A DNA stretch of 64,000 bases from Gammaproteobacteria bacterium (GTDB lineage Bacteria; Pseudomonadota; Gammaproteobacteria; JAKDMP01): contig JALUYA010000009.1 of assembly GCA_027018875.1 (NCBI GenBank), positions 34,019 through 98,018 on the forward strand, written 5' to 3'. Position 1 is the first letter of the stretch; each line of letters starts with the position of its first letter. A program made the position numbers and the translations under genes. A model generated the notes under the pieces. The model ran no database searches, had not been told where the DNA came from, and saw nothing but the letters and a program-made list of their open reading frames with translations. This document shows positions 3,991-17,335 of the stretch, piece after piece.

Positions 3991-5652
3991 TCAATCCACC
4001 ATGGGTAAATCGAGGCCGCGGGCCCGCGCCGTCTCGATCGCCCGGGGATAACCGGCATCGGCATGGCGCATCACTCCGGTTCCCGGATCGTTGACAAGCA
4101 CCCGCGCCAGGGCCCGCTCGGCCCGGTCGCTGCCGTCGGCCACAATCACCACTCCCGCGTGCAACGCATACCCCATGCCGACCCCACCACCGTGATGAAA
4201 GCTCACCCATGAGGCACCGCTGGCGGTGTTGAGCAAGGCATTCAGAATCGGCCAGTCGGCCACGGCATCGGAGCCGTCGCGCATCGCCTCGGTCTCACGG
4301 TAAGGCGATGCAACCGAGCCCCCGTCTAGATGATCCCGCCCGATCACGATCGGGGCCTTAAGCTCCCCCTTGCGCACCATCTCGTTGAAGGCGAGCCCGA
4401 GCCGGTCGCGTTCGCGATACCCGAGCCAGCAGATACGGCAAGGCAGGCCCTGGAAATGAATCCGCTCGTGGGCCATATCAAGCCAGTTATGCAGATGCCG
4501 GTCATCGGGAAACAGGGCCTTGGCCTTGGCATCGGTGCGATAGATATCCTCGGGATCTCCCGACAGCGCCGCCCAGCGGAAGGGCCCCTTGCCTTCACAG
4601 AACAGCATGCGCATATAGAGCGGTACGAACCCCTTGAAATCAAAGGCATTTTCCACCCCGGCCTTGCGAGCCATGGCGCGGATGTTGTTGCCATAATCGA
4701 AGGTCGGAATCCCCCGGGCATGAAACCCGAGCATTGCCCGTACGTGACGGGCAATGGAGCGCATCGCCAGGTCGGTGTATTTTTGTGGATCGGAGGCACG
4801 CAGACTTGCCGCCCGGGTAACGTCATAACCGACCGGGATGTAACCGTTCAACGGATCATGCGCCGATGTCTGGTCGGTGACCAGGTCCGGCTGCATCTCA
4901 CCCGCCCCGATCTCCTCGAACATTTCGGCGGCATTGCCGAGCACCCCGACGGAGACGGCCTCTCCCCGGCCACAGGCATCACGAATTATGTCCAGGGCTT
5001 GCGGCAAGGAGTCGGCACGCCGGTCAAGATACCCGCTCGCCAGGCGTTTTTCGATCCGCGCCGGATCCACCTCGACGGCAAGACAGCAAAGCCCCGCAAA
5101 CACGGCGGCAAGGGGTTGCGCGGCCCCCATGCCGCCCAGGCCGCCGGTGAGCAGCCAGCGCCCCCGCGCCTCGCCGCCATAGTGGCGGCGCACCGCCTCG
5201 GCAAAGGTCTCGTAGGTGCCCTGAACGATTCCCTGCGAGCCGATGTAGATCCACGATCCCGCGGTCATCTGCCCGAACATCATCAATCCCTTGCGATCCA
5301 GTTCAAAAAAGTGTCCCCAGGTGGCCCACTTCGGCACCAGATTGGAATTGGCGATCAGCACCCGGGGGGCATCCTCGCGGGTGCGAAACACGCCGACCGG
5401 TTTGCCCGACTGGATCAACAATGTCTCGTCGTTCTCGAGTCGCTTCAGGGTGGCCACGATGGCGTCAAAGGACTCCCAGTCCCGCGCCGCGCGGCCAATA
5501 CCACCGTAAACCACGAGTTCGTGGGGATTCTCACCTACCTCGGGATCGAGGTTGTTGTGCAGCATCCGCAGCGCGGCCTCCTGCACCCAACCCTTACAGG
5601 ATAAATCCGGCCCCGTCGGGGCCCGCAACTCGACATCACGAAAACGTGTCAT
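3991..5652 (-). CDS. hutU: Urocanate hydratase
   Basis: Full-length 553 aa; [57 protein letters not shown] and [23 protein letters not shown]. Confidence 0.96.
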
Positions 5653-6293
5653 TGTTCATCTCCTTGGATGCTATACCGAACCGTTGTGGGTTACGGGAAA
5701 TAAAGCACGCCGCGGCGGTACCACTCCAATCGAATCACCACGGTACTTGCTCTGTTTGCCTCCGCACCCATCAGCCCCGGCCAATTTCGAAACGCGCCCA
5801 CCGCGATGCGCGTGCCAACCTTGCAGAATCATATCGCGCGCCCGACCGGAACGCTGCTCCAGCCGCCGGGTGCGCCTTGAGCCAGCCGTCACCTTACCGA
5901 TACCCGCGCCAGAAGCGCAACCCCCATCGTGCATCCAGCGGCACCTGGGCCTAAGACCTGCTCTGACCGTGCAAGGGACAGCCGATCTGATGCGCACGGC
6001 ACCGAAAACAAGGAGTTCGCATTCTCCCGAAACCGTGTTTCGCGATGCGCGCGCAGTACCCCCCGATTTGCCGCGATCTATTGGAAACCGCGAAAATCTG
6101 TTATTTTTATAAAAAATGACCTGGCAGATTGCTAAATCGACAGCCTGGGGATTACAAGCGACGGAGACCACCGCGAATCGCGGATCCGTTCATTTTGCCC
6201 GAGGGCAATAGCATAATTCCCGGGCCGGATCCGGCCCCTGGGCAGCCCGGGGATCCAGGATATCGATTCCGATCGCCACGGATACGGGACGAA

Positions 6294-9200
6294 ATGATGG
6301 ACAAAGAAGATGGTATGGAAACCCGGCGCGGCATTTGCGGCATCTGCCCGGCGGGCTGTTGGGTCAAGGTAGGCCTGCGCCACGGTAGGCTGGAGACGAT
6401 AGCCGCCGATGAGGGTCACCCGCTGGGGATGATCTGCCGCCGCGGGCAACACGCCGCGGAAATCATCTATTCCGAAAACCGCCTGCGTTATCCGCAAAGG
6501 CGCGTCGGCTCCAAGGGTGGTTTCAAGTTTAAGCGTATCAGTTGGGATGAAGCCTATGCTCATATCGTCCAGCGCCTGAACGCCATCAAGGCCGAATCCG
6601 GATCCGAGGCCCTGGCCGTGTACACCGGGCGCGGGGCCTTCGAGCTTTCCCTGTGTGACATCTTCCAACCCAAGGGCGTGGCCGTGTCCTCGGCCTCCAG
6701 CGTGCTGTTTCCCTTCGGTTCGCCCAACACCATGGGCGTAGGGGCGCTGTGTTATGTCTCCTTCGCCATGATGGCGCCGCACCTCACCATGGGCCGCATG
6801 CTGATCAATATGTTTGCCGACATGGAGAACGCGCAGCTGCTGGTGGTCTGGGGAACCAACCCGGCTACCGATTCGCCGCCGCTGGACATGCAGCGCTTGG
6901 AACAAGCGCGAAAACGGGGCGCCGAGATCGTGGTTATCGATCCGCGGCGCACCGAGACGGTGCAGCGCTGCGCGGCCGAATGGATCCCTCTCCGGCCGGG
7001 TACCGACGGGGCGCTGGCCCTGGGGCTGATTCAAGTGATGCTGGAAGAAGAACTGTACGACGAGCACTTCGCCGAGAATTGGACCCTGGGCTTCGACGAG
7101 TTGGCACAATATGCGCAGCACTTCCGTCCCGAAGTGGTGGAGTCGATCACCGGCGTGGCAGCGGCCACGGTTCGCCGCCTGGCCCGGCGCATCTGCACCG
7201 CTACCGGTGCGGCACCGGTGATGTATACCGGGCTGGAGTATTCCAACTCCGGCATCCAGGCCATCCGTGCGGTGTTCACCTTGTGGGCCCTGGCGGGCCA
7301 ACTGGATGTGCCGGGCGGCTTAGGGCTGGCCATGCAGGGCTCCCATTTCCCCATCAATCGCTCGGGGCATCTAGCCAATCCCGATCTGTCCCGGGCCGTC
7401 GCCCGCGACCGTTTCCCCCTCTATAGCAAATACCGCGGTGAATCCCACGCCAGCGGGTTGGTGGACGCGGTGCTGCATCACCAGCCCTACGCCATCCGTG
7501 GCCTCATTGTCCACGGCGCCTCGGTACTCACCTCCTGGCCGGAGACACCGCGCTGGCGCGAAACCCTGGCCAAACTGGATTTCCTGGTGTGTATCGACCG
7601 CCAACTCACCGCCGATGCGGCCTACGCAGACATCGTGCTGCCGGCCACTACCCTATTCGAAATTAATTCCTATATGACCTATGGCCCCATCTTCCGCCTG
7701 CGTGAACGCCTTGTCGAGCCCGTGGGAGAGGCCCGCAATGATTACCTGATCATGGCCGAGCTTGCGGCGCGGCTTGGCTATGGCGAAGCCTATCCGCAAT
7801 CGGAAGAAGCCTTGCTAAGGCACGTACTGAAAGGTTCTGGTTTCAGCCTCGACCAGGTACGCCGGCGAGGTGGAACCGTCAAGATTCCCACGCCCATGAT
7901 GGAATACAAGAAATGGGAGAAGGGGGGGCTGCGCCCGGACGGGACGCCCGGTTTCGACACGCCCTCGGGCAAGTTCGAAATCCACTCTACCATCCTCGCG
8001 GACTACGGCTATGAGCCTCTGCCCAAGTACACGGAACCGGTGGAAGGTCCACTGGCACGCCCGGACCTGGCGCGGGCCTTCCCGCTGGTGTTCAACTCCG
8101 GCGCTAGGCCGCAGACCGATTTCCGTTCCCAGCACCACGGCATCTCGGGGCTGGCCCGGGACAATCCCGAACCCACGGTGGAGATCAACCGCGTGGATGC
8201 CGAGGCCCGAGGCATCCATAGTGGTGACAAGGTGGAGCTGCGCACGCCCCGCGGCACGGTCCGTTTCCGCGCCCGGGTAACGGACGATATCGTTGCGGGC
8301 GCGGTGGAGGCCAACATGGGCGGCGGCGGACCCGTGGGTCCCGAGGCCTGGCGCGAAACCAACGTCAACGAACTAACGGACCTGGGAAACCACGATGAAA
8401 TCTCTGGCTTTCCGGTATATAAGGCCTTGCTTTGCGAGGTGCTCAAGGTGGCGCCGGGCACCGCGGTCGGGGGCCGTCCCGAAGAGGTCCCGGAGATTTG
8501 TGGCGCACAATGGCGGCGGTCGAAGAAGGCCGAGCCCCGGCGACGTATCTACCTGGACAACAATGCCACCACAGCCCTGGATCCGGGAGTCCGCCTCGCC
8601 ATGGCACCTTATTTGGAGGCGGGGTATGGCAATCCCTCCAGCATCCACGATACCGGCAGGCAGGCGCAGGAGGGACTGGAGCAGGCCCGCCGCCGGGTGG
8701 CACGGCTGATTAACGCCAAACCGCGGCGGGTGATCTTCACCGGCGGCGGTTCGGAAGCGGATAACCTGGCCCTTAAAGGGGTGGCCTTCGCCGCCCAGGG
8801 CCGGGGGCGGCACATCATTACCACCCAGGTGGAACACCCGGCGGTGCTGGGCGCATGTCGCTTTCTCCAAGGCCGAGGTTTCCGCGTCACCTACCTGGAA
8901 GTGGACGCCACGGGCCGACTCGCCCCCGACACCTTGGAGAAGGCGTTAAGCGATGACACGCTGCTCGTCTCGGTGATGGCGGCCAACAACGAAACCGGAA
9001 CGATCTTTCCCATCAGGGCATTGTGTCGCCTGGCTCATGCCCGCGGCGCCCTGTTTCACACCGATGCGGTGCAGGCCGCCGGAAAGATTCCAATCGACGT
9101 GGAAGACTGGGGCGTGGATCTGTTGACCCTATCCGGGCACAAGTTCCACGGACCCAAGGGCGTGGGCGTGCTCTATATGCGCAAGGGAGTGTTACTGGAG

Positions 9201-9698
9201 CCGTTGGTACATGGTGGCAAACAGGAGCGCGGTCTGCGGGCGGGAACCGAAAACGTGGCCGCCATAGTCGGCCTGGGCGCGGCCACGGAAAAGGCCCTGA
9301 ACGATCTTGCCGACATGCACCGGGTGCAGGTTCTGCGCGATCGGATGCAAAGCGGTATCGAGGCGCTGATTCCTGATGCGCGCCTGAACGGCCATCCGCA
9401 AGCGCGTTTACCCAACACCCTCAACATGACTTTGCCGGCGCTACGCGGCGAGTCGCTGGTGGTGGCCCTGGACCAGAAGGGAATCGCCTTGTCGTCCGGC
9501 TCGGCCTGCAAATCCGGCTCCCCCGATCCCTCCCACGCGCTCATGGCCATGGGGATGAGTGCCGAGGATGCGCACTGCGCGATTCGGGTGTCACTCTCCC
9601 ACTTAACCACGGAAGAAGAGATAGATCGAACGTTACAGGCCCTGGCCGAGGTACTGGAGGAGATGGAAACCACGGTACGATTTCTTCCCTGCAAGTAG
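6294..9698 (+). CDS. Fusion protein: molybdopterin (bis-PGD) oxidoreductase fused to IscS/NifS-type cysteine desulfurase
   Basis: One ORF (track 6129-9698; start re-placed at MMDKEDGMETRRG). N-terminal [4Fe-4S] motif CGICPAGC...GMIC, Mo-ligand-type SPNTMGVGALC (Cys codon 6750-6752), and a molybdopterin-dinucleotide-binding C-domain. Then RRRIYLDNNATTALDP from about 8538, PLP Lys in LSGHKFHGPKG (codon 9141) and active-site Cys in SSGSACKSGSPDPSHAL (codon 9507). Confidence 0.93.
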   Translation: MMDKEDGMETRRGICGICPAGCWVKVGLRHGRLETIAADEGHPLGMICRRGQHAAEIIYSENRLRYPQRRVGSKGGFKFKRISWDEAYAHIVQRLNAIKAESGSEALAVYTGRGAFELSLCDIFQPKGVAVSSASSVLFPFGSPNTMGVGALCYVSFAMMAPHLTMGRMLINMFADMENAQLLVVWGTNPATDSPPLDMQRLEQARKRGAEIVVIDPRRTETVQRCAAEWIPLRPGTDGALALGLIQVMLEEELYDEHFAENWTLGFDELAQYAQHFRPEVVESITGVAAATVRRLARRICTATGAAPVMYTGLEYSNSGIQAIRAVFTLWALAGQLDVPGGLGLAMQGSHFPINRSGHLANPDLSRAVARDRFPLYSKYRGESHASGLVDAVLHHQPYAIRGLIVHGASVLTSWPETPRWRETLAKLDFLVCIDRQLTADAAYADIVLPATTLFEINSYMTYGPIFRLRERLVEPVGEARNDYLIMAELAARLGYGEAYPQSEEALLRHVLKGSGFSLDQVRRRGGTVKIPTPMMEYKKWEKGGLRPDGTPGFDTPSGKFEIHSTILADYGYEPLPKYTEPVEGPLARPDLARAFPLVFNSGARPQTDFRSQHHGISGLARDNPEPTVEINRVDAEARGIHSGDKVELRTPRGTVRFRARVTDDIVAGAVEANMGGGGPVGPEAWRETNVNELTDLGNHDEISGFPVYKALLCEVLKVAPGTAVGGRPEEVPEICGAQWRRSKKAEPRRRIYLDNNATTALDPGVRLAMAPYLEAGYGNPSSIHDTGRQAQEGLEQARRRVARLINAKPRRVIFTGGGSEADNLALKGVAFAAQGRGRHIITTQVEHPAVLGACRFLQGRGFRVTYLEVDATGRLAPDTLEKALSDDTLLVSVMAANNETGTIFPIRALCRLAHARGALFHTDAVQAAGKIPIDVEDWGVDLLTLSGHKFHGPKGVGVLYMRKGVLLEPLVHGGKQERGLRAGTENVAAIVGLGAATEKALNDLADMHRVQVLRDRMQSGIEALIPDARLNGHPQARLPNTLNMTLPALRGESLVVALDQKGIALSSGSACKSGSPDPSHALMAMGMSAEDAHCAIRVSLSHLTTEEEIDRTLQALAEVLEEMETTVRFLPCK

Positions 9699-9772: not shown

Positions 9773-10618
9773 TTACTGCCTCACGCAGGATCGCCCGGGC
9801 GCCACTTCATCCCCTGTGGCAAGGGTGGCGTCGCGCATAGACCGCAGCCAATCCTGCATTGCAGAGATGCCGAGTTCACCCGCTTCCAGTTCCCGGAGTC
9901 GGGTAACCACCGCCGAACCCGAGATGACTCCCGCCGCCCCGGCGGCAATCCCTCCGGCCACCTGCTCCGGGTTGGAAATCCCGAACCCCAGGACAGGGGG
10001 AGCCGCTCCGCGGCGGGCCAAAGCTTGGAGCCATTCGCGCACCGCCCGTCCCGCCCCCTGCTCGGCGCCGGTCACCCCGCTGCGCGTCAAGACATAGGTA
10101 TATCCATCGCCCAGTCTGGCGATACGCTCCAGGGCCGCACCCGGGGCATTGGGCGGGGCGATGAATACCGGCGAAATACCGGCCCGACGGGCCGCCGCGG
10201 CGAACGGCTCCCCCTCCTCGCTCGGAACATCGGCTACCAATACCGAATCCACTCCGGCCTTGGCGGCCGCGGTATAGAAGGCATCGACACCTCGGCGCAC
10301 CACAAGATTGGCGTAAACCAGAAGCCCGATAGGCAAATCCGGGTGCCCTCGACGCAGCCCCGCGCACAGATCGAAGCCTCGGCGCACGGTAGTCCCCGCA
10401 GCCAGAGCCTCGGCGCCGGCCCGTTGTAGCGTCGGGCCGTCGGCGACGGGGTCGGAAAACGGCATGCCCAGCTCCAGCGCATCCGCCTGTGCCGCCAACA
10501 GTTCAAGATGCCCGATACAGCTCCGCGGATCCGGAAATCCAAGTACGGTAAACGGAATGAAAGCACCACGGCCGGAACGCGACAGCGCGGCAAAACATTC
10601 CCGGTAGCGACGAGTCAT
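9773..10618 (-). CDS. trpA: Tryptophan synthase alpha chain
   Basis: [42 protein letters not shown]. Confidence 0.97.
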
Positions 10619-11808
10619 GGCTTGACCCCTCCCAGCAAGCCTCGCACATGGGTCAAATCCTTATCTCCCCGTCCTGACAATCCGACCAGGATCACGGTTT
10701 CACGCTTTACCCGCCGTGCCTCTTCCAAGGCCCATGCCAGGGCATGGGCCGACTCCAGCGCCGGAATAATCCCCTCTTCGCGCGACAAGGCCTGAAATGC
10801 GTCCAGGGCGGCGGCATCCTTGACGGGTACATATTCGGCGCGGCCAAGCTCTGCAAGGTAGACATGTTCGGGACCAACGCCCGGATAATCCAGCCCCGCC
10901 GAGATCGAGTACGATTCCAGAATCTGCCCGTCATTATTCTGCATGACATGGGTGCAGGCCCCGTGCAGTATCCCCGGAGAACCCGCCGAAATGGTGGCAC
11001 CGTGGCGCCCCGTCTCGACCCCCTCGCCGCCCGGTTCGGCACCGACGAGACGTACGGATTCATCGTCGATAAAATCGGCAAACAGTCCAATGGCATTCGA
11101 CCCGCCGCCGACACAGGCGACCGCCACGTCGGGCAGCCGCCCTTCGCATTCCAGAATTTGGGCCCGGGCCTCCCGCCCGATGACCCGCTGAAACTCTCTG
11201 ACCAAGGTCGGAAACGGATGCGGCCCGGCGGCGGTTCCCAAAAGGTAGTGTGTGTCGGCATAACTGGATGCCCAGTCGCGCAAGGCTTCGTTGATGGCAT
11301 CTTTCAGCGTGCCGCTGCCGTTTTCGACCGCCACCACTTCGGCACCGAGCAATTCCATGCGGAAAACATTCGGTTGCTGGCGCTCACAGTCACGCACCCC
11401 CATGTACACTCGCACGGGAATTTTCATGAGGGCTCCCGCCAGCGCGGTAGCCACCCCGTGCTGCCCGGCACCGGTTTCGGCAATGATTCGGCGCTTCCCC
11501 ATGCGCTTGGCCAGCAACGCCTGGGCCAGCACCTGGTTGGTCTTGTGGGCCCCGCCATGGAGCAGGTCTTCACGCTTTAGGTAGATCCGCGCCGGGGTCT
11601 GCGCGACCAAGTTGCGGCACCGGGTAAGCGGCGTCGGTCGGCCCGCATAATCCCGCAGCAGCTCGTTCAGCTCGACCTGGAATTGGGTATCGGTACGGGC
11701 CGACTCGAAGGCGGCCTCGAGTTCCACGAGTGGAGGCACCAAAAGTTCCGGCACGTAACGCCCCCCCCAGCACCCAAAACGCCCGGGCTTGGTTTCACTT
11801 GTCTCCAT
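10615..11808 (-). CDS. trpB: Tryptophan synthase beta chain
   Basis: [37 protein letters not shown] (PLP Lys), [22 protein letters not shown]. Confidence 0.98.
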
Positions 11809-13180
11809 CGAGTCTCCTGCGGCCCGGTGCGCCGCGCAGTGTTTGCATCAGGGTGAAAAGCCTAGCCTCATCCTTGATCCCAGGACTCGCCTCGACCCCG
11901 GAATTCACATCGATCGCCCACGGCTCCAGGTGCCGGGCCACGAGCACATTCTCCCGGCCGATACCACCGGCCAACACGCACCGCGACAAATCCGTTCCCG
12001 CAAGAGCGGCACCGGCGAACACGAGACCGCTGCCGCCCAATACGCCATCCCGGCCCGTGTCGAGCAACAACCGGTCCGCTCTCCAAGCCTCGGGTTGCGG
12101 CAAGGGAGGCCGGCCCGCAACGGCCTTCCAGATTTCGCATTTCGCCGGTAGCAGTTCACGCAACCGTCCGGCGTATTTGCCATCTTCACGACCGTGGAGC
12201 TGTACCGCCGTAAGCCGCAGCAATGCCGCCGTGGCTGCCACTTCTTCAAGCGCCTGATCGCGAAACACGCCGATCCACTCCAGGGGCGCCGCGGCGCGGA
12301 TTTCGCGGGCCCTGGCGATAGCGATGCGCCGGGGAGAATCCGGGGCAAAGATCAATCCACCCATCACCGCTCCCCGACGCCAGGCCATGGCGGCATCTTC
12401 GGGCCGGGTGAGTCCACAAACCTTGACCCGGCCGAAGATCAGCCGCCGTGCCACATGCCCCGGTCGGCCACCGCGCGAGAGCCCGGTTCCTATCAGGAAT
12501 CCGTCCACCAGCGGCGCCAGCCGGGCGATCTGCTCGCGGGAGGTGATACCCGATTCACTCACTACCCGGCGCTCGGCGGGAATTTGCGGGGCCAACCGTT
12601 CGGTAACGGCCAGATCCAGCGCCAGCGTCTTCAAATTCCGATTATTTATTCCGATGATCGGCGCTTCGATCCGGATTGCCCGCTCAAGCTCCGCCTCGTC
12701 GTGGATCTCGGTCAGGGTATCCATACCCAATTTTTGCGCAACCTCATAACAGGCCCGCCAGCGGGCATCGTCGAGTACCGAGAGCATCAGCAGCACGGCA
12801 TCGGCCCCGTGTGCCCGCGCCTCGAGTACCTCGTCGGGTCCCAGGATGAAATCCTTGCGGAGCACGGGAACCCGGGTCACCCCGCTTACCTGGCGCAGGT
12901 GAGAGATCTCCCCTCCGAAAAACTCGGGTTCGGTCAATACCGAAACGGCGTCGGCAATCTCCTCGTATTGTTCTGCTAATTCGGCCGGATCATAGTGCTC
13001 TATCAATACCCCCGCCGAAGGTGAGGCCGCCTTGCATTCTAGAATAAAGGTGGGCCACGGTCGCTGCAACGCATCCCGAAGTCCCGCGCCTTCCCGCGCG
13101 GCGATGGGCAAGCCCATTGTCCCGGGCGCGACCCCCGGCCGACGACGGCGCTTCGCGGCTAAGATTTGTTCAAGCACCAT
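11795..13180 (-). CDS. trpCF: Bifunctional indole-3-glycerol-phosphate synthase / phosphoribosylanthranilate isomerase
   Basis: N-terminal IGPS ([28 protein letters not shown]) and C-terminal PRAI ([48 protein letters not shown]) in one 461-aa ORF. Confidence 0.96.
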
Positions 13181-14180
13181 GGCTTAGTTTTCGCAGCCGT
13201 TCGAGCCGCTTTGCGGCCTCGCCGTTTGCCAAGGCCGCCAGGGCCATCTCGACCCCCTGGCGCAAGTTCTCGACCCGCTCGGCAATCCACAACAAGGCCC
13301 CGGCATTGAGTGCGATGGCTTCGCGGTAGGCCACAGAGCCCCTGCCTTCGAGCACGGCGGCCAAGGCCGCCGCATTTTCCTCCGGCGCTCCGCCGCGAAG
13401 CACGGCCAATGGGCGTGACGCAAGCCCGGCGCCCTCGGGGGTCAATTTCAGTGTTTCGATTCCTCTCCCGGTAACCCGGGCGGCCAGCGTGGGGCCATGC
13501 AGGGCGATTTCATCGAGCCCGCTGCCGTGGACCACGAGCGCCCGCTCGGTGCCCAGCGCCCGCAGCGCCTCGGCGACCGGGACAACCAGTTCCGGCGCAT
13601 AGACTCCCGCGAGCTGGCAGGGAGGGGCCGCGGGATTGACCAGGGGACCGAGGACATTGAACAAGGTTCTCGTCGCCAGGCTGCGCCGTACCGCCATGGC
13701 ATGGGCGATCCCCGGGTGATAGTCCGGCGCGAACAAAAAGGCGACTCCGGCCTGATCCAGACAGCGTCTGGCCGTAACCGCGTTCGCCCGCACCTCCACT
13801 CCCAGAGCCTCGAGCACATCCGCGGACCCCGAGCGCGAAGACACAGACCGGTTCCCATGTTTGGCTACAGGCAGGCCACAACCGGCGACTACGAAGGCCA
13901 CGGCGCTCGATACATTGAGCGTTCCCAGGCCATCACCACCCGTGCCACAAGAATCCGCGAAAAAATAATCGGGACGGGGAAAGGGCTTGGCTGCGGACCG
14001 CAAGGCCCTGGCCGCGGCGGCGATTTCCTCTGCGCTCTCGCCCTTGATTTTCAGGGCTACCAGCAGAGCGGCGAGGAGAATCGGATCGACTTTCCCCTCG
14101 ATTACACGAGTGAACAGAATCTCAAGATCCTGCGCGGCGAGTTCCTCGCGGCGGTAAAGACGTTCAAGCATCTCGATCAT
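13170..14180 (-). CDS. trpD: Anthranilate phosphoribosyltransferase
   Basis: ADSCGTGGDGLGTLNVSSAVAFVVAGCGLPVAKHGNRSVSSRSGSADVLEALG and FNVLGPLVNPA. Confidence 0.97.
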   Translation of the reverse strand: MIEMLERLYRREELAAQDLEILFTRVIEGKVDPILLAALLVALKIKGESAEEIAAAARALRSAAKPFPRPDYFFADSCGTGGDGLGTLNVSSAVAFVVAGCGLPVAKHGNRSVSSRSGSADVLEALGVEVRANAVTARRCLDQAGVAFLFAPDYHPGIAHAMAVRRSLATRTLFNVLGPLVNPAAPPCQLAGVYAPELVVPVAEALRALGTERALVVHGSGLDEIALHGPTLAARVTGRGIETLKLTPEGAGLASRPLAVLRGGAPEENAAALAAVLEGRGSVAYREAIALNAGALLWIAERVENLRQGVEMALAALANGEAAKRLERLRKLSHGA

Positions 14181-14782
14181 GACGATTCATTCCGCGCCCA
14201 GGCAAACACTTGCCGGATCAGGCGACTGCCATCGCGTGTCAGGATGGATTCGGGATGAAACTGGACCCCGAGCAAGCGCCGCGCAGGATCCTCGATCGCC
14301 ATCGGCACCCGCACTCCCACCTCCTCGATCCAGGCGAGTTCCTCGAATCCCTCGGGGATTCTGCCGATCGCAAGCGAGTGGTATCTACCGGCCACGAAGG
14401 GATCATCCAATCCCCGGAACACGCTCGTCCCATGATGCCGAATTGCTCCCGCCTTGCCGTGCACCAGCCGCGGCGCCCGCTCGACAATTCCACCAAAGGC
14501 GGTGGCAAGGGCCTGGTGCCCCAGGCATACGCCAAATACCGGCTTACGCCCCGCCGCGAGCTTTAGCAGTGGAACCAGTACTCCCGCATCCTCGGGCCGG
14601 CCCGGACCGGGGGAAAGCACCACCAAGTCATGCCCCGACAAGCGCCGCTCCAGGGTTGCCATGTCGGCATCGTTGCGCCAGACCTCGACCGCAGCACCTT
14701 CGCGGCGAAATTCGTCTACCAAACTATAGCTGAAGGAGTCGAAATTATCTAAAAATAAAACTCGGAAGGATTTAACCGACAT
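14177..14782 (-). CDS. trpG: Anthranilate synthase component II (glutamine amidotransferase)
   Basis: LFLDNFDSFSYSLVDEF, VLSPGPGRPEDAG, VFGVCLGHQALA, VQFHPESILT. Start moved to Met at 14782 because the upstream part of the ORF overlaps trpE. Confidence 0.95.
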   Translation of the reverse strand: MSVKSFRVLFLDNFDSFSYSLVDEFRREGAAVEVWRNDADMATLERRLSGHDLVVLSPGPGRPEDAGVLVPLLKLAAGRKPVFGVCLGHQALATAFGGIVERAPRLVHGKAGAIRHHGTSVFRGLDDPFVAGRYHSLAIGRIPEGFEELAWIEEVGVRVPMAIEDPARRLLGVQFHPESILTRDGSRLIRQVFAWARNESS

Positions 14783-16322
14783 GAGTCGTCTCCCTGTCCA
14801 CACCCAATGTCTGTAATACGGCCTGCGCCTTGCGCCGGGTTTCATCGGCTTCCGCCACGGGGTTGGAATCGGCCACGATCCCCGCTCCCGCCTGAATGCG
14901 GGCACTTCCCGAACGCACCAGTGCCGAGCGGATCACGATCGCCGTATCGAGATCCCCTCCCGCCGTCAGGTACCCCACCGCACCCCCGTAGGGACCTCGT
15001 CGGCAGGGCTCATAGCGGCGCAAAAGCTCGGCGGCACGCAATTTCGGCGCCCCGGTCAAGGTACCCATATTGAGCGTAGCCTGGTAGGCGTGCAGCGCAT
15101 CCAACCCCGGCATCAGCTCGCCCGAAACCCGGGAAACCAAGTGCATGACATGCGAATAACGCTCGACCCGCATCAACTCGTCGACCCGCCGACTACCAGG
15201 AATCGCTACCCGAGCGATATCGTTGCGGGCCAGATCGACTAGCATGACATGCTCGGCAATTTCCTTCTCCGACAGCCTCAGTTCCAGTTCCAGCCGGGCA
15301 TCGAGTTCCGCATCAACGCTCGGGCGCCCCTGGCGCCACCCACGCTCCCGGGTACCGGCAATCGGACGAATCTCCACCCGCCGGGCGGCGGCATCCACCT
15401 TGAGCGCGCTTTCCGGCGAGGCTCCGAAAAGTATGCCATGGCGATCTTGCAAGCAAAACATATATGGACTGGGATTCTGGATTCTCAGCCGGGCATAGGC
15501 TCCCACGGGGTCCGCGCAAGCCGCGGTCCAGGCCCGCGCCGGTACAATTTGATAGATATCGCCTTCGTTAATGTGCTGCCTGGCCCGATCGACCAGCCGG
15601 GCATAGGCGGCATCGTCCAGTTCCAGGCAGGCGGTGACCGCCGTGGGTATCTCGCCGGGCCGGTAGGAACCGGCATCATGGCATAACCGCTCGAGCGCGG
15701 CAAGCCGGCGACGGGCCTCCAGCGCCTCGTCCCGCAGTGCCAGCGTATAGAGCGTAGTATGGGCATGACGATGATCGATGCGGACCAGACTGCCGGCAAG
15801 ATGCAGGCTGTAATCCGGGTAGCCCGTCGGGTCGCGGATTGCGCCCGGGAGCGATTCGAAGTCATCGAGCAAGTCATAGGCGAAGCAGCCGAAAACGCAA
15901 ACATTGGCCGCCTCTGCCGCATCATGAATGGGTAAATCGAAAAGCAGTCGCCGCAAGGGATCGAATACGGAGCCCGCCTGTAACCGGGTCGCGTCATTCC
16001 CCACAATGCCGCCACGGGGGTAGTCGAAAACCAGAGTTCCATCTTGCTCCTGTATCACCGGCATATCTACCGCGGCAGCGACTTTCGCCGAGATCTTTGG
16101 ATCGGCATGAGGATGTGCCACCAGCCGCACGCTTCCGTTTCGGGACTCTAGGCTGATCCAGGGATCCACGAAAATCAGGCTTTCCGCGCTTTCTCTTGCA
16201 CCGGAATCGGCGGTTTCGAACAGGGCCGCCACCTCCTGCTGGGCGGCAAGTGCGGCGTAGATCGACAGCGGATCGGGGGCTCCCTCTAAGCGCCGAGACA
16301 ATATACGCAACCCCCCGCTCAC
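14772..16322 (-). CDS. trpE: Anthranilate synthase component I
   Basis: [82 protein letters not shown]. Confidence 0.96.
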
Positions 16323-17335
16323 GGCCTCCGTCCCGCGGCTGCAATAAAGGGCTTCAGCTCCTGCATCAGTGTGGTAAAGGTGCTCGGATCGAGCGACTGT
16401 CGCCCATCAGACAAAGCCTCGGCCGGGAAAGGATGCACCTCGATCAATAATCCATCGGCTCCGACCGCGACCGCCGCCTTGGAGAGCGGCGCCACCAGCT
16501 CCGCCACCCCGGTTCCATGGGAAGGATCCACCAGAACCGGCAGATGCGTATTGCGCTTGAGCCATGCCACCGTATTGAGATCCAACGTATTGCGAGTCGT
16601 GGTTTCATAGGTGCGAATGCCACGCTCACACAAAATGACCTTTTCATTCCCCTCGGTAAGGATGTACTCGGAGGCCAAGAGCAGTTCCTCGGCGGTGGCC
16701 GCCAAACCCCGCTTCAATAACACGGGCAGGCCACTGCGTCCCACGGCCCGCAGCAGCGCATAGTTCTGCATATTCCGCGCGCCAACCTGCAACACATCGG
16801 CACGGCCGATAAAATGCTTGAGATCGGCCGTATCAAGTACCTCGGTCACCACCGGGAGCCGCCACCGTCTTGAGACATCGGCAAGAAGTTCCAGGGCTTC
16901 CGGCCCGTGTCCCTGAAAACTATAGGGACTGGTACGCGGCTTGTAGGCCCCACCGCGAAGCGCATGCGCGCCGGCGGCCTTCACGGCATCGGCCGCTGCC
17001 GTCAACTGAGCCTCGCTCTCCACCGCGCAAGGCCCGGCGATTACCACGAAGCGTTCGCCACCAACGCTCACCCCATGGCCCAGATCCACCACGCTATCCT
17101 CGGGATGCAGCGATCGGCTTGCCCGCTTATACGGCGCCGGGTCACGGATAACTTCCTCGACCAGTGGATGCTGTTCAAGCGCCATGGTTTCCAGCGCCAA
17201 GGCCGATCCCACCAACGCATAGGCGCGAGTGCCGTTGCCGCCAACGGTAAGTGCCGTGATTCCTCGTTCGCGCAGTTCCTCGATCAATCGCTCACGATCC
17301 GTTTCCGGTACGTTCGCTCGCAATACCAAAAACAT
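16319..17335 (-). CDS. aroF: 3-deoxy-7-phosphoheptulonate synthase (AroF / type I-beta, with N-terminal ferredoxin-like domain)
   Basis: [94 protein letters not shown]. Confidence 0.94.

Follow-up and report, generated by a model that had tools for sequence, protein, structure and literature searches.

A single open frame of a gammaproteobacterial genome joins a molybdopterin oxidoreductase to a complete cysteine desulfurase, which raises the question of what reaction such a chain would catalyse. The frame lies at positions 6294-9698 (+) of the window, by which we denote the entire analysed stretch of 64,000 nucleotides. Its architecture is already catalogued and characterised in the metallopterin-dependent ergothioneine synthase (MES) of Caldithrix abyssi (Beliaeva & Seebeck 2022, PMC9516567), an enzyme described also from Candidatus Abyssubacteria and a euryarchaeote (PMC9516567), and the reading of the window gene is MES, an assignment which we regard as almost certain on the basis of its sequence features. 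What may be new here is the possibility of finding an O2-dependent and an O2-independent ergothioneine synthase in one and the same cell.

Architecture of the fused protein

The preliminary description of this DNA had proposed a single chain uniting a Mo oxidoreductase with a complete desulfurase, and this is confirmed. Translation gives one stop-free frame of 1134 residues in which four Pfam domains succeed one another in order, namely Molybdop_Fe4S4 (residues 9-60; 22.6 bits compared to a cut-off of 22.7), Molybdopterin (63-492), Molydop_binding (605-711) and Aminotran_5 (752-1112; 290 bits). The Mo/W-bisPGD oxidoreductase module, assigned from Pfam and from its closest fold, acetylene hydratase, comprises about residues 1-720 (6294..8453, +), while residues 750-1134 (8541..9695, +) make up the NifS/IscS-type cysteine desulfurase module according to domain profiles and structure match. 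The linker between them (residues 725-749; 8466..8540, +) is predicted to be disordered and is unconserved, as there is not a single invariant position in columns 721-749 of the alignment of relatives. It had been argued that no internal ATG precedes the desulfurase domain. Although an in-frame ATG is indeed absent between residues 676 and 769, this argument is not decisive because GTG or TTG codons are present at 681, 712, 716 and 719. NCBIfam holds no model naming the whole MES chain, the top matches being NifS (below cut-off) and Fdh-alpha; a fusion lacking a whole-chain name in that collection is now assigned to a characterised enzyme.

In the AlphaFold2 model of the window protein (mean pLDDT 84.7) both modules are predicted confidently. 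Confidence is low in three places, namely the desulfurase Cys loop (1072-1075), the tail (1126-1134) and the loop of the Mo ligand, which would be expected of mobile relay parts and of a site modelled with its cofactor missing. The top PDB match of the model is acetylene hydratase (2E7Z), followed by IscS/Nfs1 structures.

Conservation of catalytic residues

In C. abyssi MES (CaMES) Cys153, the PLP-binding Lys952 and the relay residues Cys1074 and Cys1135 are required, while Cys1097 is dispensable (PMC9516567). All of the essential residues have counterparts in the window protein. Cys153 (codon 6750..6752, +) corresponds to the Mo/W ligand whose exchange in the C153S variant renders CaMES almost inactive (PMC9516567). 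Lys950 (9141..9143, +) is equivalent to Lys952 as PLP Schiff-base lysine, Cys1072 (9507..9509, +) to Cys1074 as desulfurase persulfide cysteine, and Cys1133 (9690..9692, +) to Cys1135 as C-terminal relay cysteine within an FLPCK tail which is predicted to be flexible. These four residues, together with the [4Fe-4S] ligands Cys15, Cys18, Cys22 and Cys48 (6336..6437, +; Cys14/17/21/48 in CaMES), are invariant in all 76 sequences of the conservation alignment, in which one genome is represented twice (L039 and L084). C1095, the counterpart of the non-essential C1097, is kept in 72 of the 76. The motifs quoted in the preliminary description are present, and the desulfurase cysteine codon which it placed at 9507 is exactly that of Cys1072. 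The penultimate residue Cys1133, whose counterpart is essential in C. abyssi and which in the relatives resides in a tail reading RFLPCK or a close variant thereof, is absent from that account.

Occurrence and inheritance of the fusion

Among 369 genomes belonging to the class of the window genome, two others contain the full-length fusion, at 69% identity, and a third contains a piece of it on a chimeric contig. Scanning named genomes for the Mo module by itself yielded 107 relatives, the best 80 of which were analysed. Of these 80 loci, 78 continue in frame into the desulfurase, and the remaining two contigs stop inside the Mo domain; all 78 best-scoring named-genome relatives with a contig of sufficient length are fused likewise. 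That an assembly artefact joined two separate genes is practically inconceivable, and we consider it refuted since the fusion recurs in independently assembled loci of this best-scoring set, its two exceptions being cut by the contig end. The domain combination, for which an architecture query had been recommended, is recurrent: MES is found in at least 80 contigs from more than 12 phyla, its hosts including Gemmatimonadota, Calditrichota, KSB1, Chloroflexota, Acidobacteriota, Myxococcota, Thermodesulfobacteriota, Nitrospirota, Latescibacterota, Actinomycetota, Gammaproteobacteria and two archaeal groups. Among the relatives compared, the nearest MES comes from a Chromatiales MAG, and the closest relative, L056, shares 77% identity with the window MES.

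The phyla are mixed in the tree of the fused proteins (35 label changes compared to a minimum of 15), which is consistent with frequent transfer. In a further tree, the desulfurase modules of MES form one clade, separate from 37 free-standing desulfurases, and the distances among Mo modules agree with those among desulfurase modules (Mantel r 0.92, 53 sequences). The single clade and the concordant distances would fit one fusion event with subsequent joint inheritance of both modules.

Some loci do not contribute to this picture. In G127 an apparently unfused relative (L041:1486-3056) changes over, partway through the MES gene, to a Uup-like ABC-transporter gene on the reverse strand, indicating a chimeric contig or a rearrangement, and is uninformative on fusion. 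The same-class Mo homologues L048-L054 (33-38% identity) are unfused and distant and were not counted as MES. The MES frames of L094, L115, L066 and L058 extend over 1280-1450 residues from stop to stop; the surplus, located ahead of the first Cys motif, could represent an N-terminal extension or mere open frame.

Assignment as ergothioneine synthase

The assignment as MES rests on architecture, numbering and residues. It is supported by the same two-module architecture and a length of 1134 compared to 1136 residues in CaMES, by the invariance of the residues essential there, and by the fold of the N-terminal module, for which acetylene hydratase is the best match, as reported for CaMES (PMC9516567). 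The clade formed by the fused desulfurases and the agreement of the module distances point in the same direction, as does the genomic association with EgtD, the histidine methyltransferase. EgtD is encoded in the window genome (G000:C14:80424-81311; 387 bits compared to a curated cut-off of 290.9) and is enriched in MES genomes, exceeding this cut-off in 45 of the 53 searched (one of them counted twice, as G266 and G397, and three more holding EgtD fragments) as opposed to 113 of 339 for the class as a whole. In 34 loci, L056 included, the distance between EgtD and MES is no more than about 6 kb. Four MES homologues have yielded ergothioneine in E. coli (PMC9516567), and from its sequence we infer that the window gene product would likewise be active as MES.

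In C. abyssi the sulfur of cysteine is relayed by two cysteine persulfides, reaches a Mo=S site and ends up on trimethylhistidine (PMC9516567). By analogy, the C-terminal PLP domain of the window protein would draw sulfur from L-cysteine onto Cys1072, and the resulting persulfide would hand it over to Cys1133, which is part of the flexible C-terminal tail. From there it would be transferred to Mo(IV) (or W), the reduced metal which Cys153 holds in the N-terminal bis-MGD site, so that Mo(VI)=S is formed. Trimethylhistidine, which EgtD produces from histidine, would then attack the Mo=S sulfur with C2 of its imidazole and be released as ergothioneine in an O2-free reaction. The Mo=S chemistry itself is presumed, in C. 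abyssi as well as here. EanB (a rhodanese using polysulfide) and EgtB (a non-heme iron enzyme using O2) accomplish the same overall step, the placement of sulfur onto trimethylhistidine, with folds unrelated to that of MES (PMC9516567).

The Mo module also matches formate dehydrogenase and thiosulfate reductase models, with 270 bits for Fdh-alpha and 259 bits for PhsA. It might accordingly be read as a formate-dehydrogenase-like or polysulfide/thiosulfate-reductase-like enzyme whose fused desulfurase matures the cofactor once, but the curated cut-offs, 666 and 694, are much higher than these scores. Moreover, the genes checked between 0.2 and 20.2 kb in the window (GGDEF, M48 protease, LemA, urocanase, trp operon, CBS-domain protein and alpha/beta hydrolase) include neither an Fe-S or membrane component nor fdhD or an isc/suf gene, a range for which the preliminary description's remark on missing partners holds. 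Finally, a desulfurase-dead CaMES mutant retains an active Mo site which exchanges sulfur between ergothioneine and trimethylhistidine (PMC9516567), from which it follows that the desulfurase supplies sulfur for turnover and not for maturation. Such an enzyme is therefore extremely unlikely, and MES remains our reading.

Two known systems illustrate the difference. In E. coli, IscS, FdhD and formate dehydrogenase are separate proteins, with FdhD as sulfur-transfer chaperone in maturation; an IscS-type desulfurase supplies sulfur to a bis-MGD site as in MES, but via a chaperone and not during turnover. The eukaryotic Mo cofactor sulfurase ABA3/MOCOS carries a NifS-like domain fused to a MOSC domain and acts once, in the maturation of xanthine-oxidase-family enzymes. 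Its NifS-like domain hands sulfur to a Mo cofactor as well, yet the fusion partner differs and the transfer is a one-time event, in contrast to the turnover of MES. ABA3 is cited also in PMC9516567. The analogy to formate dehydrogenase and FdhD drawn in the preliminary description was the wrong frame, as the Mo=S sulfur is a turnover substrate for ergothioneine (PMC9516567). Its proposal that the chain sulfurates its own Mo site agrees with C. abyssi insofar as transfer there is intramolecular, within one chain only (PMC9516567), but errs if one-off maturation is meant, since transfer occurs in every turnover. A desulfurase-dead mutant with full activity, named there as counter-evidence, is contradicted by CaMES K952A, which forms about 2000-fold less ergothioneine (PMC9516567).

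Coexistence with EgtB and the host

The window protein resembles CaMES in its acetylene-hydratase-like bis-MGD N-terminus, its desulfurase C-terminus, its identical essential residues and the presence of EgtD in the genome. The setting is different: the host is a gammaproteobacterium with EgtB, a terminal oxidase and an NO reductase, and EgtD is not adjacent to MES. The O2-dependent EgtB (G000:C14:81386-82588; 561 bits compared to a cut-off of 360) and EgtD form an overlapping, side-by-side pair (G000:C14:80424-82588; L138:503-2733) on a contig other than that of MES (C9). The tetranucleotide make-up of the egtB-egtD contig agrees with that of the window contig (mean r 0.92 compared to 0.24 to 0.82 for foreign loci). 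In G001, a genome of the same family, the EgtB-EgtD pair is present and MES is absent.

This arrangement could in principle speak against a role of MES in ergothioneine formation here, as EgtD might serve EgtB alone. MES would then not be strictly needed for ergothioneine, and the window protein could be a paralogue sulfurating another heterocycle. We consider this very unlikely, given that the protein retains every essential residue and shares 77% identity with L056, where EgtD follows downstream of MES at a distance of about 600 bases and no EgtB exceeds the cut-off, as well as about 70% with many MES of genomes which contain EgtD but no EgtB over cut-off.

Retaining the assignment as MES, we note that the genomes in PMC9516567 were chosen by absence of EgtB and EanB, a selection through which an overlap of MES and EgtB would have been missed. 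The window genome does possess EgtB; absence of EgtB is a matter of host context and not a defining property of the enzyme. EgtB also exceeds the cut-off in 10 of 79 other MES genomes, including Thiodiazotropha, Thiodictyon, Polaromonas, a Bdellovibrionales and a Microthrixaceae MAG; one of these ten, L133, has a contig which breaks off within the Mo module. Most of these genomes are MAGs, and single cases may be binning errors, but the number and spread of the cases make this unlikely for all of them. The window genome further contains a COX1-COX2-SCO1 terminal oxidase cluster adjoining a Crp-type regulator (Pfam neighbours), the two COX1-type proteins receiving no name from NCBIfam, and a NorB-type NO reductase with NnrS, on account of which the host looks facultative rather than strictly anaerobic. 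While PMC9516567 states that MES is exclusive to anaerobes, the oxidase, the NO reductase and EgtB in this host, along with EgtB in the ten other genomes, indicate that it is not confined to strict anaerobes.

It is likely that in some bacteria, the host included, EgtB and MES share one EgtD and provide ergothioneine with or without O2, and that MES, having been transferred widely and not among strict anaerobes alone, joined an EgtB-EgtD pair which is the older of the two in the host's family. The cell would presumably use MES without O2 and EgtB with O2. Among the papers searched, none on MES with EgtB and EanB phylogeny was found. The occurrence of MES across more than 12 phyla and its co-occurrence with EgtB bear on the question of whether ergothioneine serves as an antioxidant in aerobic life or has an O2-free role, for which an organism with both enzymes constitutes a natural test case. 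In G127, a MES genome, two EgtB-like proteins (G127:C38:43080-44357 and G127:C15:21302-22429; 342 and 260 bits) both fall below the cut-off, and one of them could be SenA- or OvoA-like.

Genes adjacent to MES

Divergently from MES, the urocanase HutU (934 bits) is encoded at 3991-5652 (-). A urocanase gene beside MES occurs in none of the best 80 of the 107 relatives. A HutH-family aromatic-amino-acid lyase is encoded on another contig of the window genome (C44). Between urocanase and MES a 166-codon open frame (5671-6171, -) matches neither Pfam nor NCBIfam and is probably not a gene. Among the conserved neighbours of MES loci, cluster 1 matched no NCBIfam family. Directly downstream of MES, on the opposite strand, a complete trp run (9773-17335, -) comprises DAHP synthase, TrpE, TrpG, TrpD, a fused TrpC-TrpF, TrpB and TrpA.
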